Translations under genes and position numbers: made by a program
Notes under the pieces: model-generated
The model's database searches: none
The model's input: the letters and a program-made list of their open reading frames with translations, nothing else
Told to the model about the DNA's origin: nothing
DNA from: Acidobacteriota bacterium
Lineage (GTDB): Bacteria > Acidobacteriota > Blastocatellia > Pyrinomonadales > Pyrinomonadaceae
Assembly: GCA_020200235.1 (NCBI GenBank)
Contig: JAIVJC010000004.1
Span: 1 to 33,863, forward strand
Length of the DNA: 33,863 bases
Direction: 5' to 3'
Shown: positions 9,757 through 32,617 of the stretch, in pieces
How positions within the stretch are numbered: the first letter of the stretch is position 1
Layout of the letters: each line of letters starts with the position of its first letter

Positions 9757-9872
9757 TTGACACCGACGAAAAAGCACACCCCGTGTGAGCGGGGGTCGCA
9801 AAGCCGACGGGAGTCAGGCGCTGGGCGTTCGCGCGTCGCGTTTGACTCGGCTGGGTTGCCGAAAGGTGTGTC
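9757..9872 (+). promoter_or_regulatory. GEMM-I-type cyclic dinucleotide riboswitch
   Basis: Conserved GEMM-I elements appear in order and spacing. GCACACC at 9774-9780 corresponds to GCAAACC. The P1b hairpin CCCCGT-GTGA-GCGGGG has a GNRA tetraloop. GGGTCGCAAAGCC at 9792-9804 matches the consensus GGGACGCAAAGCC closely. The second helix AGTCA...TGACT contains a TTCG-capped tip, and GGCTGGGTTGCCGAA closes it at 9849-9863. Outer pairing of GACACC with GGTGT(G)TC forms the basal stem. GEMM-I RNAs sense c-di-GMP and the GEMM-Ib subclass senses cGAMP. It lies in the leader of pilM, between the promoter and the gene. Confidence 0.85.
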
Positions 9873-10143: not shown

Positions 10144-11067
10144 ATGTTCAAACGGAACACGAAGAAGAACAATCTCGTCGGCTTGGACATCGGCTCAAGC
10201 TCCGTCAAAGCCGTCGAGCTTCAAGGGAAGCTCGGCAGCCTCGTCCTGCTGAACCTCGCGCACGAGAGCCTCCAGCCCGACTCCGTCGTCGACGGTCAGA
10301 TCATGGAGCTGAACTCCGTGTCGCAGACCATCGCCAGCATCTTCCAGTCCAACCAGATCAAGACCGAGCGCGTGGCGGCTGGCGTCTCGGGCAGCTCCGT
10401 CATCGTCAAGAACATCATCGTGCCGCCGATGAGCGAGGCTGAGCTGGAAGAGTCCATCGACTGGCACGCCGAGGAGCACATCCCTTTCGACATCGCCGAC
10501 GTGAGCCTCGACTACCAGATCGTCGGCTCGAACGCCGACTCGCTGAGCGTCCTGATGGCGGCGTGCAAGCGCGACTTCGTCGCCAACATCAAGCAGGCGA
10601 TCCAGCTCGCGGGCAAGGAGCCCGTGATCATCGACGTCGACGCCTTCGCGCTCCAGAACTGCTACGAGGTCAACTACGATCCGCAGCCCAACCAGGCGGT
10701 CGCGCTCCTCAACATCGGAGCCTCGACGATGAACATCAACATCGTGCAGGGGACGCGCAGCGTCTTCACGCGCGACGTCTCCGTCGGCGGCAACCAGTAC
10801 ACCTCGCTCCTACAGAAGGAGCTCTACCGCGCCACCTCCGACGACGGCGAGGGCGCTGTGCAGAAGATTCTCGTGTCGGGCGGCGGCTCGAAGCTGCCCG
10901 GTCTCGCGGACTTCCTGACGAACCGCTTTGAGATTCCGGTCGAGCACTTCGACCCGTTCCGCAACATCAAGATCGACGCGCGCCGCTTCGATCCCGAGTA
11001 CCTGAAGGAAGTCGTTCCCGAGATGGCTGTCGCGGTCGGGCTCGCTTTGAGAGGAGTGGAGGCTTAA
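10144..11067 (+). CDS. pilM: Type IV pilus assembly ATPase-fold protein PilM
   Basis: PilM is the cytoplasmic actin-like protein of the type IV pilus alignment complex and binds the N-terminus of PilN. The N-terminal GLDIGSSSVKAVEL is the phosphate-1 loop of the actin/FtsA fold. SIDWHAEEHIPFDIADVSLD and LNIGASTMNINIV are typical PilM blocks, and VSGGGSKLPGL is the adenosine motif. At 307 residues it is about 45-50 shorter than usual. The gap lies between QKEL and YRATSDD (near base 10825), where homologues have a helical stretch. The frame is kept, so the product may be partly functional, or the assembly may have collapsed. It is the first gene of pilMNOPQ; its TAA directly abuts the pilN ATG. 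Confidence 0.9.
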   Translation: MFKRNTKKNNLVGLDIGSSSVKAVELQGKLGSLVLLNLAHESLQPDSVVDGQIMELNSVSQTIASIFQSNQIKTERVAAGVSGSSVIVKNIIVPPMSEAELEESIDWHAEEHIPFDIADVSLDYQIVGSNADSLSVLMAACKRDFVANIKQAIQLAGKEPVIIDVDAFALQNCYEVNYDPQPNQAVALLNIGASTMNINIVQGTRSVFTRDVSVGGNQYTSLLQKELYRATSDDGEGAVQKILVSGGGSKLPGLADFLTNRFEIPVEHFDPFRNIKIDARRFDPEYLKEVVPEMAVAVGLALRGVEA

Positions 11068-26312: not shown

Positions 26313-26343
26313 TACTTTGCCGCCGGACGGGGGCGAGTTTGAT

Positions 26344-27546
26344 CTAACGCGCGCAGGCTTCGGCAACGCGGCGGATGCGCGTGATCCCTTCTTTCAGCCG
26401 TTCGAGCGAGGTCGCGTAGGAGATGCGGAGGTAGCCGTCCGCGCCGAAGCCCGCGCCGTCGGTGACGACGACGTGCTCGTCCGTCAGAAGTTTTTCGGCG
26501 AACACGGCGGAAGTTTTCACCCTACCCGACAGGCAGCCGCGCACGTCGGGGAAGGCGTAGAACGCGCCTTCGGGCGCGAAGCACTTGAAGCCGGGGATCT
26601 CGGCGAGCGCGCCGATGAGCCATGCCCTACGGCGCGCGTACTCGCCGAGCATCTCGCGCACGCAGTCCTGCGAGGCGTTCATCGCCGCCGCCGCCGCCGC
26701 CTGCGCCACCGAGTTCGGGTTGCTCGTCGAGTGACCCTGTACGAGCAGCATCGCCTTGATCCACCCGGCGGGCGCGAGGGCGTAGCCGATGCGCCAGCCC
26801 GTCATCGCGTAGGTCTTCGAGAACGAGCCCGCGATGCACAGCCGCGCTCGAAGCTCGGGCGCGAGCGACGCCGCGCTGAAGACCTCGCCCGGCGGGTAGA
26901 CGAAGCGCAGGTAGCACTCGTCGGAGACGACGTAGACGCCGCGCTCGGCGCAGACCTCCATAATCTTACGAAACTCCGCGGGCGGGATGACGCGACCCGA
27001 AGGGTTCGACGGCGAGTTGATGATGATGTGTTTCGTGCGCGGCGTGACGGCGGCGCGCACGTCTTCGGCGGTGAGCTGAAATCCGTTGCGCTCGGTCTCG
27101 ATGTAGACGGGGGTTGCGCCAGCGAACTTGGCGATCTCCGGGAAGGTGACCCAGTAGGGCTTGGCGACGAGGATTTCGTCGCCGGGGTTCGCGAGCGTGA
27201 CGACGGCGTTGAAGATCGCCTGCTTGCCGCCCGCCGTCGCCATCACCTCTGCGGGCTCGTAGTGAGCGCCGAACTCGCGCCCGTAATAGTCGATGATCGA
27301 GCGTTGCAGCGCGCGCGTGCCGCCCGTCGCGGTGTACTTCGTCTCGCCGCGGCTCATCGCCTCCTGCGCCGCGAGCCTGACGTGCGCGGGCGTGTCGAAG
27401 TCGGGCTCGCCCGCGCCGAGATCGACCACGTCCACGCCTTCGGCTTTCAGCGCCAGAGCCTTCTGCATCGCGCCGAGCGTCGCGGAGGCTCGCATCCGCG
27501 CCACGCGCTCCGACGTCTGAAAGATGTTCTGAGCGGGCTTGGTCAT
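26344..27546 (-). CDS. Class I PLP aminotransferase (aspartate aminotransferase-like)
   Basis: It transfers an amino group between an amino acid and a 2-oxo acid, probably aspartate and 2-oxoglutarate; related enzymes use prephenate or aromatic substrates. The family landmarks are in place: GAGEPDFDTP, KYTATGGTRALQ, NSPSNPSG (Asn contacting PLP), SDECY (Asp), SFSKTYAMTGWRIGY with the PLP Lys at about 244, and the carboxylate-binding Arg in YLRISYA near 373. Its 400 residues are typical. It is transcribed toward the TonB-like gene and follows coaD by about 60 nt. Confidence 0.9.
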   Translation of the reverse strand: MTKPAQNIFQTSERVARMRASATLGAMQKALALKAEGVDVVDLGAGEPDFDTPAHVRLAAQEAMSRGETKYTATGGTRALQRSIIDYYGREFGAHYEPAEVMATAGGKQAIFNAVVTLANPGDEILVAKPYWVTFPEIAKFAGATPVYIETERNGFQLTAEDVRAAVTPRTKHIIINSPSNPSGRVIPPAEFRKIMEVCAERGVYVVSDECYLRFVYPPGEVFSAASLAPELRARLCIAGSFSKTYAMTGWRIGYALAPAGWIKAMLLVQGHSTSNPNSVAQAAAAAAMNASQDCVREMLGEYARRRAWLIGALAEIPGFKCFAPEGAFYAFPDVRGCLSGRVKTSAVFAEKLLTDEHVVVTDGAGFGADGYLRISYATSLERLKEGITRIRRVAEACAR

Positions 27547-27606
27547 CGCAACAATTTAGAGCGTCGCAAAGTTCGCGAAAAGTATATCACCGGCGCGGGG
27601 CGCGCA

Positions 27607-28110
27607 TCACTGATGCGAAGTGCGCCCCAGCTTCTCGCTCATGCGCGCCTCGACGAGCTCGGGGACGAGACCGCGGACGCTGCCGCCGAGCTGGTAGACC
27701 TCTTTGACGAGCCGCGAGCTGACGTAAGAGTAAGCCTCCGCCGACATCATGAAGACGGTCTCGACGCGCGGTTCGAGCCTGCGGTTCATGAGCGCCATCT
27801 GCAACTCGTACTCGTAGTCGGAGATGGCGCGGATGCCCCGCACGATGGCGTCAGCCTTCTGCTCGACGGCGTACTTCATCAGCAGCCCGCCGAAGCTATC
27901 GACCGAGACGCGGCACGTGCCGGTCTCGATCCCGCCGAGCGCGTCGCGCAGGATCGACTGCCGCTCCTCGACCGTGAAGAGCGGCTTCTTCTCGGGGTTG
28001 ACGACGACCGCGACGACGATCTCGTCGAAGAGGTGGCAGCAGCGACCAATGATGTCGAGGTGACCGTTCGTGACGGGATCGAATGAGCCGGGGTAGATGG
28101 CACGTCGCAT
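27607..28110 (-). CDS. coaD: Phosphopantetheine adenylyltransferase
   Basis: It makes dephospho-CoA from 4'-phosphopantetheine and ATP, the fourth step of CoA synthesis. It is 167 residues, the usual size. Motifs: YPGSFDPVTNGHLDII (nucleotidyltransferase loop with the TxGH motif as TNGH), VRGIRAISDYEYELQMA and YSYVSSRLVKEV at the C-terminus. ATG 28110 is chosen because family members begin with this MRRAIYPGSFDP block; the longer frame to 28347 has no homology. Confidence 0.95.
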   Translation of the reverse strand: MRRAIYPGSFDPVTNGHLDIIGRCCHLFDEIVVAVVVNPEKKPLFTVEERQSILRDALGGIETGTCRVSVDSFGGLLMKYAVEQKADAIVRGIRAISDYEYELQMALMNRRLEPRVETVFMMSAEAYSYVSSRLVKEVYQLGGSVRGLVPELVEARMSEKLGRTSHQ

Positions 28111-28324: not shown

Positions 28325-28783
28325 ATGAGACGTTTGCCCCTCCGCACGCTTCTGCTCGCCGGCCTGCTCTGCCTGTCAGCCCACGCCTCGCCCGCCTCCG
28401 AAGGCTCGCAGCGACCGCGGCGGCAGCCCGCCCTGCGCGACGTTCAAAAGATTTACGTCGGCGACATGGGTCGCGCCGACGAAGCCGAGCGCTTCCGCTT
28501 CCTCGTCGGCGAGGAGTTGACGAAGCAGGGCTTCACGGTCGTCAACCGCGCCGAGGACGCCGACGCCGTGCTCTCCGGCGCGCTCTCGGTGCGCGTCGGC
28601 GACGACCGCACGGAGGCGCGCGCCTTCGTCAAGCTGGAAACGCCGGGCGGGGCGAGGCTCTGGGCGAAGGACTTCGGCAACCGACTGATCTTCAACCCGC
28701 TCAAGCGCAAAGAGCCGACCAAGCGGCGAGCCTCCGAGATCGCCAGCGAGCTGCGCAGGGACTGGCAGAGGGCTGGCAAGTAG
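28325..28783 (+). CDS. Small secreted protein of unknown function
   Basis: 152 residues with a Sec signal (RTLLLAGLLCLSAHA, cut near ASA). The mature part is alpha/beta in character (KIYVGDMG..., FTVVNRAEDADAVLSGALSVRV...) with a basic C-terminus. It recalls small exported proteins that use a conserved alternation of strand and helix, but I cannot name the family. AAGGAG lies 6 nt before the ATG. It is divergent from coaD. The ORF ends 5 nt before a new promoter. Confidence 0.75.
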   Translation: MRRLPLRTLLLAGLLCLSAHASPASEGSQRPRRQPALRDVQKIYVGDMGRADEAERFRFLVGEELTKQGFTVVNRAEDADAVLSGALSVRVGDDRTEARAFVKLETPGGARLWAKDFGNRLIFNPLKRKEPTKRRASEIASELRRDWQRAGK

Positions 28784-28788
28784 TCTGC

Positions 28789-28817
28789 TTGACACCTCCC
28801 GCGCGCGGTGTTTCAAT
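28789..28817 (+). promoter_or_regulatory. Putative promoter of the metH leader RNA
   Basis: TTGACA at 28789-28794 is followed by TTCAAT at 28812-28817 with 17-nt spacing. The -35 is perfect and the -10 is moderate. Transcription would begin near 28824. Confidence 0.5.
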
Positions 28818-28823
28818 GAATTC

Positions 28824-28970
28824 GACGAAAAGACGTGGTGAGTTAAGGCGACTTGCGGCCACGTAAAACAAACGGCTAAACAGCTCGGGCGGGTCTCGTC
28901 AAGAGAGAACCCCACGTCAAAAGGCTTTCCACGGCGAAGCCCCGCGTTGTTTATCGCGCGGGGCTTCTTT
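28824..28970 (+). ncRNA. Structured leader or small RNA upstream of metH
   Basis: This ~145-nt stretch runs from a promoter to an intrinsic terminator with no open reading frame of note. ACGTGG at 28833-28838 can pair with CCACGT at 28859-28864 (enclosing a GCGA tetraloop hairpin AAG-GCGA-CTT), or GACGTGG can pair with CCACGTC at 28912-28918. The two structures exclude each other, which is the hallmark of a switch. A further hairpin, GGGTCTC...GAG.AGAACCC, lies at 28890-28911. It does not match SAM-I, SAH or cobalamin riboswitch consensus by eye. It could be a free small RNA or a metH leader. Confidence 0.45.
28936..28970 (+). terminator. Intrinsic terminator before metH
   Basis: GAAGCCCCGCG pairs with CGCGGGGCTTC (11 bp, 10-nt loop), followed by TTT. 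It ends the candidate RNA and lies 111 nt before metH. Confidence 0.8.
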
Positions 28971-29079
28971 GTAGCTGTTAGCTGTTAGCTGTTAGCTTTC
29001 AGCCAGAGTAAAGGAAAGCCAAAAACTAGTGGATTGGCTAACAGCTAACAGCTAACAGCTAACAGCTAACAGCTTCTAC
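28971..29079. repeat. Heptad-repeat hairpin, locus 5 (TAGCTGT unit)
   Basis: The left arm 28971-29004 carries three TAGCTGT units, and the right arm 29036-29079 carries five complementary units. An inner GCTTTC/GAAAGC pairing lies in the loop region. The element fills the space between the terminator and the metH ATG at 29081, leaving no room for a normal ribosome binding site. Confidence 0.88.
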
Positions 29080-29080
29080 A

Positions 29081-32000
29081 ATGACTGATTTCCTGACCAC
29101 ACTTAAAGAGCGCATCGTCGTCTTCGACGGCGCGATGGGGACGAGCCTCCAGTCGCAGAACCTGACGCTCGACGACTTCGGCGGCGCGCAGTTCGAGGGC
29201 TGCCCGGAGTACCTGCTCGTCAGCAAGCCTTCGGCGGTCGAGCGCGTCCACGCGGCGTTCCTCGAAGTCGGCTGCGACGTGGTGGAGACCGACACGTTCG
29301 GCGGGCTGCCCTTCGTGCTCGGCGAGTACGGCATCGCGGAGATGGCTTACGAGCTGAACCTCAAAGCCGCCGAGCTCGCCCGCCGCGTCGCCGCCGACTT
29401 CTCGACGAAGGCTCACCCCCGCTGGGTCGCGGGCTCAATGGGACCGGGCACGAAACTCCCGACGCTCGGTCACATCACCTTCGACGCGCTCCGTGCCGCC
29501 TACGCCGAACAGGTGCGGGGCTTGCTCGATGGCGGCGTCGACCTCCTCATCGTCGAGACCTGCCAGGACACTCTGCAAACGAAAGCGGCGCTCGCCGCGA
29601 TCTTCGAGAACTTCAGGGAGACGCGCCGCCGCGTGCCCGTCATCGCGCAGGTAACGATTGAAATCTTCGGCACGATGCTTAACGGCACCGAGATCGGCGC
29701 CGCACTCACGGCGCTCGAACCTTTCCCCATCGACGTGATCGGCATGAACTGCGGGACGGGTCCCAAGCACATGACCGACAGCGTCCGCTACCTCTGCGAG
29801 AACGCGCCGCTGCCCGTCTCTGTCTTGCCCAACGCGGGGCTGCCCGAAGTCCGCGACGGCAAACAGTTCTACGGTGAGACGCCGGAGACCTTCACCGCGC
29901 AGCTCCTCCACTTCGCGAAAGACTTCGGCGTCAACGTCGTCGGCGGCTGCTGCGGCACGACGTCCGCGCACCTGAAGTCGGTCGTCGAGGCGATGCGCGC
30001 GGTGACGCCGAAGCGGCGCGATGCGAAGCTCGTGCCGTCGGCTTCTTCGATCTACTCGCAGCAGCCTTTCCGGCAGGACACCTCGTTCCTCATCGTCGGC
30101 GAGCGCGTCAACGCCTCGGGCTCGAAGAAGATGAGAGACCTGCTGGGCGCGGAGGACTGGGACGGGCTCGTCTCGCTCGCTAGAGAGCAGGAGCGCGAGG
30201 GCGCGCACGTCCTCGACGTGAACGTCGATTACGTCGGTCGCGACGGCGTCGCAGACATGCACGAGCTGGCGTCGCGGCTCGCCACGCAGGTGCGCATCCC
30301 GCTCATGTTCGACTCGACCGAGTGGGAGAAGATGGAGGCGGGGCTCAAGCACGCGGGCGGCAAGTGCATCCTGAATTCAACCAACTACGAGGACGGCGAG
30401 CCGCGCTTCAAGAAAGTCTTCTCGCTCGCGCGCGAGTACGGCGCGTCTGTGGTCGTCGGCACGATCGACGAAGTAGGGATGGCGCGCACCGCCGACGGCA
30501 AGCTGGAGATCGCGCGCCGCGCCTACGTGCAGGCGACGAAAGAGCTGGGCTTCCCCGCGCACGACATCTTCTTCGATCCGCTCGCGCTACCCATCTCCAC
30601 AGGCATCGAGGAGGATCGGCGCAACGCCGCCGAAACCATCGAGGGCATCCGCCGGATCAAGGAGGCTCTGCCCGGATGCTCCACCATCCTCGGCGTCTCG
30701 AACATCTCCTTCGGCCTCTCGCCAGCCTCGCGCGTCGTCCTGAACTCGGTGTTCCTGCACGAGGCGGTCGAGGCGGGGCTCGACTCGGCGATCGTCAACG
30801 CGAGCAAGATCGTCCCCTTGAACCGCATCGGCGAGCGCGAGCGCGAGGTCTCTCTGCAACTGATCTACGACCGCAGGGAGTTCGACGGCGAGGTCTGCAC
30901 CTACGATCCGCTGACCGAATTCACGAAGCTCTTCGAGGGGGTGTCGTCGAAGAGGGCGGCGGCGGTCGACGAGAGCCTGCCCGTCGAGGAGATGCTCAAG
31001 CGGCACATCATCGACGGCGAGAAGCTCAAGCTCGAAGACCATTTGAAGCTCGCGCTGGAAAAATATTCCGCGCTCGACATCGTCAACGACATCCTGCTCG
31101 ACGGCATGAAGGTGGTCGGCGATCTCTTCGGCAGCGGGCAGATGCAGCTCCCCTTCGTCCTACAGTCGGCGGAGGTGATGAAGGCGGCGGTGCGCTTCCT
31201 CGAACCATTCATGGAGAAGAAGGGCGGCGCGACGGCGAAGGGGACGATGGTGCTCGCCACCGTCAAGGGCGACGTGCACGACATCGGCAAGAACCTCGTG
31301 GACATCATCCTGACGAACAACGGCTACCGCGTCGTCAACCTCGGCATCAAGCAGACGATTGACGCGATCCTCGAAGCCCACGCCGAGCACAACGCGGACG
31401 CCATCGGGATGTCGGGGCTCCTCGTCAAGTCCACCCTCATCATGCGCGAGAACCTTGAGCTGATGACGGAGCGCGGCATCAGCGTGCCCGTCGTCCTCGG
31501 CGGAGCAGCGCTCAACCGCCGCTACGTTGACGAAGACTTGAAACCGATCTACACGGGTCAGCTCTTCTACGCGCGCGACGCCTTCGACGGTCTGCACACG
31601 ATGGATCAGCTGATGAGCGCGGGCGGCGAAGCGGGCGAGGCGGCGCAGGCGAAGGCGCGCGCCGCGGCTGCGGGCGCCGACGACGGGGGCACGGAGGACG
31701 CAGAAGATTTGATCGGCGAGGAGGCGAAGCTCGGCATACGCAAGCCCGCGCGACCCCGCGCCGCGAAGCCTGCGGGCGACACGACGCACACCAATCGTTC
31801 GGATGCGAACCCGGATGCGCTCGTGCCCGCCGCGCCCTTCTATGGCTCGCGCGTCGTCGAAGACCTGCCGCTCTCCGAGGTCTTCGCGTTCGTCAATGAG
31901 TCGGCGCTCTTCAAGGGACAGTGGCAGTTCAAGCAGGGGCGTAGGAGCACCGAAGAGTACCGCCAACTCGTCGCCGAGAAGGTGAGACCCGTTTACGAGG

Positions 32001-32617
32001 AGCTGAAGCAGCGCTCGGAGCGCGAGCGGCTGCTCACGCCGCGACTCGTCTACGGCTACTTCCCGTGCCAGGCGGAAGGGAACGATCTCGTCGTCTACCA
32101 CGACGACGAGCGGACGGAGCGCGCGCGCTTCACCTTCCCGCGCCAGCCCGCGGGCAGGCGTTTGTGCCTGGCGGACTACTTCGCGTCCAAAGAGTCGGGG
32201 CGCGTGGACGTGGTCGCGTTCCAGCTCGTCACCGTCGGGCGGCGCGCGAGCGAGTACGCGCAGGAGCTGTTCAAGTCTGACAACTACACCGAATACCTCT
32301 TCTTCCACGGCCTCTCGGTCGAGAGCGCCGAAGCCCTCGCAGAGCTGTGGCACAAGCGCGTGCGCGAGGAATTAGGCATCGCCGGGCGCGACGCGAAAGA
32401 GATCACGAAACTCTTCCACCAGGGCTACCAGGGCTCGCGCTTCAGCTTCGGCTACCCGGCCTGCCCGCGCCTCGAAGACCAGACTAAACTCTTCGAGCTG
32501 CTCGACCCATCGCGCATCGACGTTTCGCTGACCGAAGAGTTTCAGCTCGAACCCGAGCAATCGACCTCCGCGATCATCGTCCACCACGAAGAGGCGAAAT
32601 ACTTTTCCGTCGACTGA
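29081..32617 (+). CDS. metH: Cobalamin-dependent methionine synthase
   Basis: It moves a methyl group from methyltetrahydrofolate through B12 to homocysteine. All four modules are present in 1178 residues (E. coli 1227). The homocysteine domain (1-325) has FDGAMGTS and the zinc ligands in MNCGTGP and GGCCGTT (about 287-293). The folate domain (about 340-600) has NVDYVGRDG and [12 protein letters not shown]. The B12 domain has the cobalt-ligand His in GDVHDIGKN (about 731-739) and SGLLVKS. The C-terminal reactivation domain has [15 protein letters not shown], a SAM-binding motif. A ~70-residue Ala/Glu/Asp-rich linker (about 850-920) precedes it and is longer than in E. coli. No SD sequence precedes the ATG, which sits 1 nt after hairpin locus 5. 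Confidence 0.96.

Follow-up and report, generated by a model that had tools for sequence, protein, structure and literature searches.

By its sequence, the element ahead of metH, the gene for the cobalamin-dependent methionine synthase of an Acidobacteriota bacterium, is a variant SAM-II riboswitch, and it very probably has its own promoter and switches metH OFF at the level of transcription. The window, by which we mean the whole stretch of 33,863 nucleotides that was analysed, had been described in a first-pass annotation as carrying the layout of a riboswitch at this site, a description that the class match and the conservation of the element in relatives both support, although the same annotation could not match it to a known class, which proved wrong. 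An Rfam search using cmscan at gathering thresholds revealed RF00521 (SAM_alpha/SAM-II) with a score of 44.4 bits against a cut-off of 36 (E 5e-7), over the full model (positions 1-79 of 79) and as the sole family above its own cut-off at the site, while no Rfam match with E<=1 was obtained between 28700 and 29100 for the SAM-V, SAM-II long loops, SAM-I, SAH, SAM/SAH, or cobalamin riboswitches. The element is thus expected to work like other SAM-II riboswitches, but is filed as a variant because U10, reported as conserved in PMC3764141, is replaced by G28842; position 10 is a conserved position of the alignment in that paper and not part of the definition of the class. The class match also lends support to the earlier suggestion that metH is controlled by SAM, and the stretch that had been called structured does fold better than its shuffles, if moderately so (154-nt leader, z -2.4). 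The coordinates of the features are collected in Table 1.

Table 1. Features of the predicted SAM-II riboswitch and its target gene, in window coordinates.
Feature	Positions	Strand	Basis
Promoter: -35 TTGACA (28789-28794), 17-nt spacer, -10 TTCAAT (28812-28817)	28789..28817	+	Sequence and conservation
SAM-II (SAM_alpha, RF00521) aptamer match	28825..28900	+	Rfam cmscan, gathering 36
P1 helix: ACGUGG (28833-28838) with CCACGU (28859-28864)	28833..28864	+	Rfam alignment, compensatory changes
L1 triplex strand: G8 A9 G10 U11 U12	28840..28844	+	Alignment to 2QWY numbering (PMC3764141)
Predicted pseudoknot, P2b and P2a	28853..28885	+	Conserved letters; pseudoknot inferred from SAM-II structure
Predicted antiterminator 5' strand: UAAACAGCUCGGG	28877..28889	+	Overlaps SAM-binding strand; conserved, covarying
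Intrinsic terminator: perfect 11-bp stem, GAAGCCCCGCG (28936-28946) with CGCGGGGCTTC (28957-28967), then UUCUUU	28936..28970	+	-24.0 kcal/mol
Predicted antiterminator 3' strand: CCCGCGUUGUUUA	28941..28953	+	Lies in the 5' arm and loop of the terminator
metH, cobalamin-dependent methionine synthase (regulated gene)	29081..32617	+	TIGR02082, 1412 bits

Across the phylum P1 takes several compensatory forms, namely CGUGG:CCACG, GCUGG:CCAGC, CCUGG:CCAGG, AGCGC:GCGCU, and CGUCG:CGACG. The letters of P2b, UUGC and GCUAAA, are present in the window and able to pair as a pseudoknot, with UUGC (28853-28856) facing GCUAA (28875-28879), U44 (28877) unpaired, and A45-A47 at 28878-28880. P2a, formed by GGC (28847-28849) and GCU (28883-28885), is short at three pairs including one G-U, and in relatives it paired about equally well with own partners (2.18 bp) and with exchanged ones (2.13 bp). 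The pocket letters U11, U12, U20, U21, G22, C23, G42, C43, U44, and A45-A47 are all present (28843-28880); among these, U44 and A47 hold the adenine and aminoacyl ends of SAM (PMC3764141; PMC6061858). As the folding programs used contain no pseudoknot model, the bound state was taken from the published SAM-II structure, and we infer that SAM binds, that the pseudoknot forms, and in which direction control runs.

A survey of relatives revealed that the element is conserved upstream of metH and that covariation extends beyond the terminator, with compensatory changes in both P1 and the antiterminator described below. SAM-II matches with E<=1e-3 were found in 135 of 162 genomes of the class Blastocatellia (114 pass the cut-off) and in 52 of 396 genomes of an even sample of the phylum, versus none of 14 control genomes. 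SAM-I was found in 1 of the 162 class genomes, which makes SAM-II a main methionine-control RNA of Blastocatellia; this sole SAM-I riboswitch (G085:C23:77-181) sits at the extreme tip of its contig and is possibly contamination. The genes downstream of 112 class loci are metH (44), bhmT-metF (63), or other (5), such that 107 of the loci share the methionine/SAM context seen in the window. The same genome holds a second RF00521 copy (L002, 41.7 bits) upstream of a homocysteine methyltransferase/MTHFR-like gene, the product of which matches the bifunctional homocysteine methyltransferase/methylenetetrahydrofolate reductase over its first half, where the contig ends; weaker matches in this genome (L003-L008, 12-17 bits) were taken as chance. 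Other targets were also observed. SAM-II aptamers precede threonine synthase-like genes at L099-L101, L269-L271, and L273, which one would not expect of an OFF switch responding to SAM; the product at L100 passes the thrC cut-offs, and the SAM-binding strand of L269, L271, and L273 reads GUCUAAA rather than GCUAAA. L255, L256, and L258, from other families of the class, are SAM-II aptamers arranged in tandem with a terminator-like hairpin after each, and L255 and L256 likewise precede a threonine synthase-like gene.

The L1 strand of SAM-II consists of U10, U11, and U12, reported to be completely conserved (PMC3764141), and U10 is in contact with U44, the partner of the SAM adenine (the equivalent in SAM-V is U8-U47; PMC6061858). 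In the window this strand reads G U U (28842-28844), a natural variant of the pocket at a position reported to be invariant in SAM-II. G occupies position 10 in 100 of the 112 class loci and U in the remaining 12, while a further 43 matches from the phylum sample and from other copies of the family comprise 13 with G and 30 with U, the latter including a chance match that is missing the aptamer letters (L257). In a scan of named genomes, nearly all G10 forms among the matches listed belong to Acidobacteriota by title, with one exception titled 'bacterium'. That a nucleotide in contact with U44 and reported as invariant should be G in most class loci might mean that the aptamer, derived from SAM-II by the U10-to-G change, has an altered ligand preference or a strongly altered affinity, and that metH responds to a different metabolite, for instance S-adenosylhomocysteine. 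We consider this quite improbable, as the other pocket letters, including U11 and U21 that face the sulfonium, are all retained in the window, and U10 copies precede the same two genes: L009, L010, L013, L039, and L057 lie ahead of metH, and L011 and L040 ahead of bhmT-metF. Position 10 changes state three times on the metH tree, twice in what look like reversions to U, while the gene stays the same, and L057 and L009/L010, which have U, are surrounded by G forms preceding the same gene; on the bhmT-metF tree the state changes once. Because same-gene U10 relatives nest within the G10 clade, these data suggest that SAM is still the ligand of the G10 form. The simplest reading is that G and U are nearly equivalent at position 10 with SAM as the ligand, and SAM binding would persist with G28842, perhaps at an altered affinity. 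A third copy, ahead of a cystathionine gamma-synthase-like gene, has U at position 10 (L274, L276). It is conceivable, though unlikely, that the G10 form prevailing in the family of the window, Pyrinomonadaceae going by the titles of named relatives, constitutes a SAM-II subclass of distinct function, one whose affinity or ligand discrimination has changed and which is tuned to the homocysteine-methylating enzymes encoded by metH and bhmT-metF, while the third, cystathionine gamma-synthase-type copy of these same genomes keeps U10.

The promoter that had been proposed from the consensus -35 is present and conserved beyond chance. Its mean best match among 111 relatives is 10.1 of 12 versus 6.8 in shuffles, and when metH loci are aligned on TTGACA a TTCAAT-type -10 recurs at 17-18 nt, ahead of the aptamer; this conservation of both position and letters among metH relatives argues that the promoter is real. 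A generic promoter and terminator scan, which applies strict -10 and U-tract rules, detected neither at the site, since position 2 of TTCAAT is not an A and the terminator has a short U-tract, UUCUUU. The 11-bp terminator, also described in the first-pass annotation, is present, and a terminator at this place occurs beyond chance, in all but a few relatives.

Between the aptamer and the terminator, the conserved switching helix identified by sequence comparison is that of UAAACAGCUCGGG with the terminator 5' arm and loop, where 12 of 13 positions can pair, counting one G-U. In relatives GCUAAA is commonly followed by CAGC and often by NCGG, and GYUGUUU is common in the terminator 5' arm and loop. 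The mean energy of the duplex is -9.1 kcal/mol when each tail is paired with its own terminator, versus -7.5 kcal/mol (sd 0.15) after exchange of partners and -5.8 kcal/mol for shuffled tails, in a test of 2000 permutations that made no use of the tail in locating the terminators and that leaves shared ancestry in place. CAGC tails pair at -8.4 with CAGC-type terminators versus -4.7 with GAGC-type terminators, and GAGC tails at -7.3 with GAGC-type versus -6.0 with CAGC-type. Several GAGC copies (L258, L272, L274) carry GCUC or CUCUU in the terminator, such that CAGC:GCUG and GAGC:GCUC constitute a compensatory change between divergent lineages. In stepwise folding of the growing transcript, the antiterminator reached a probability of 0.94-0.997 while the 3' end lay at 28953-28960, and the terminator one of 1.0 from an end at 28964 onwards, which places the decision within a few nucleotides, just ahead of the emergence of the 3' arm of the terminator. 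As U28877 and A28880 of the antiterminator are U44 and A47 of the pocket, SAM binding and antitermination are predicted to compete for one strand.

In the mechanism that we propose, P1 would form first during transcription, as suggested by folding. When SAM is scarce, UAAACAGCUCGGG would pair with CCCGCGUUGUUUA as soon as the latter emerges, and the resulting antiterminator would occupy the terminator 5' arm and allow the polymerase to read on into metH. When SAM is plentiful, it would bind the P2 pseudoknot. The 3' strand of the pseudoknot, GCUAAA (28875-28880), carries the contacts U44 and A47 and would then be unavailable to the antiterminator, leaving the 11-bp terminator to form and shut metH off. 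The assignment as an OFF switch follows from this expectation that SAM locks the strand in the pseudoknot and lets the terminator form, and high SAM would thus probably stop transcription of the methionine synthase gene. It could instead be that the terminator is constitutive and that a short RNA is the main product of the promoter, aptamer, and terminator; part of the SAM-II output of S. meliloti is a short RNA (PMC9373788), the terminator after the SAM-II aptamer of S. meliloti metA acts in both media with no antiterminator predicted, and the minimum-energy fold of the full-length leader in the window contains the terminator. A constitutive terminator, however, needs no match between its arm and loop and the aptamer, and the antiterminator is conserved with compensatory changes, which leaves this reading very improbable beside the SAM-responsive switch.

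The first-pass annotation had placed the switch elsewhere, in two mutually exclusive pairings of ACGTGG (28833-28838), with 28859-28864 or with 28912-28917. Both are possible in the window, and the second, at 7 bp and -12.5 kcal/mol, outranks all other pairings (0.92) when the transcript end lies near 28925; yet the idea that CCACGU at 28912-28917 takes up the P1 strand in the unbound state is extremely improbable, as a second CCACG after the aptamer occurs in only 4 of 112 relatives, not beyond chance, and is missing from the second copy of the same genome (L002), the pairing leaves the terminator untouched, and its probability falls to about zero once the antiterminator strand has been transcribed. 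It may be a folding intermediate of the window sequence alone. We therefore rejected this pairing, absent in 108 of the 112 relatives, as the switch; a conserved switch does exist, and uses the 3' strand of the pseudoknot.

SAM-II is often found with terminators and with a promoter just ahead of P1 (PMC1273637; PMC2258182). The element resembles alphaproteobacterial SAM-II (SAM_alpha, metA motif, RF00521; for example S. meliloti metZ) in P1 and the letters GGUGA.UU...CUUGC...CCACG..AAA...GCUAAA, and shares the layout of the metA motif, with a promoter just upstream, a terminator downstream, and methionine genes (PMC1273637). The alphaproteobacterial riboswitches control metA, metX, and metY and have U10, whereas the Acidobacteriota copies precede metH and bhmT-metF, and the element in the window has G and adds a conserved, explicit antiterminator drawn from the SAM-binding strand. 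With the metX SAM-II of 2QWY it has the same pocket and a short P2a in common, but 2QWY is described as translational (PMC6061858) and its strand carries a Shine-Dalgarno sequence, whereas that of the window pairs with the terminator. SAM-V has the same fold and type of SAM pocket (PMC6061858, in which metY and bhmT variants were studied), but is translational, has other helix lengths and a P3, and gave no match at the site with E up to 1. SAM-II would gain a conserved transcriptional mechanism in which the ligand-binding strand itself is the antiterminator. Among the non-subscription papers searched, we found no description of SAM-II in Acidobacteria; four mention both, but none is about the two together, and the SAM-II papers found concern Proteobacteria, Bacteroidetes, and marine samples.

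Further features of the window were observed around and away from the riboswitch. Upstream of it, the ORFs at 26317-28086 (589 aa) and 28325-28783 (152 aa) have no Pfam or NCBIfam match. Downstream, inverted arrays of the heptamer GCTGTTA/TAACAGC at 28972-29074 fold into a hairpin, 34 nt in each arm, whose end is only a few bases ahead of the metH start codon; as exact copies of its 20-mer core number 66 in the genome of 4.1 Mb, the array is a dispersed repeat. Matches to microRNA families at 28972-29068 were far below their cut-offs and were rejected, since they arise from this repeat. At the same place L002 carries an inverted repeat array of another kind, and L050, a metH locus of the same genus, has none. 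Lastly, a c-di-GMP-I riboswitch (Rfam, 42.1 bits, cut-off 35) was identified at 9763-9863 (+), about 280 bases upstream of pilM (10144-11067; Pfam PilM_2), making cyclic-dinucleotide control of type IV pili probable.
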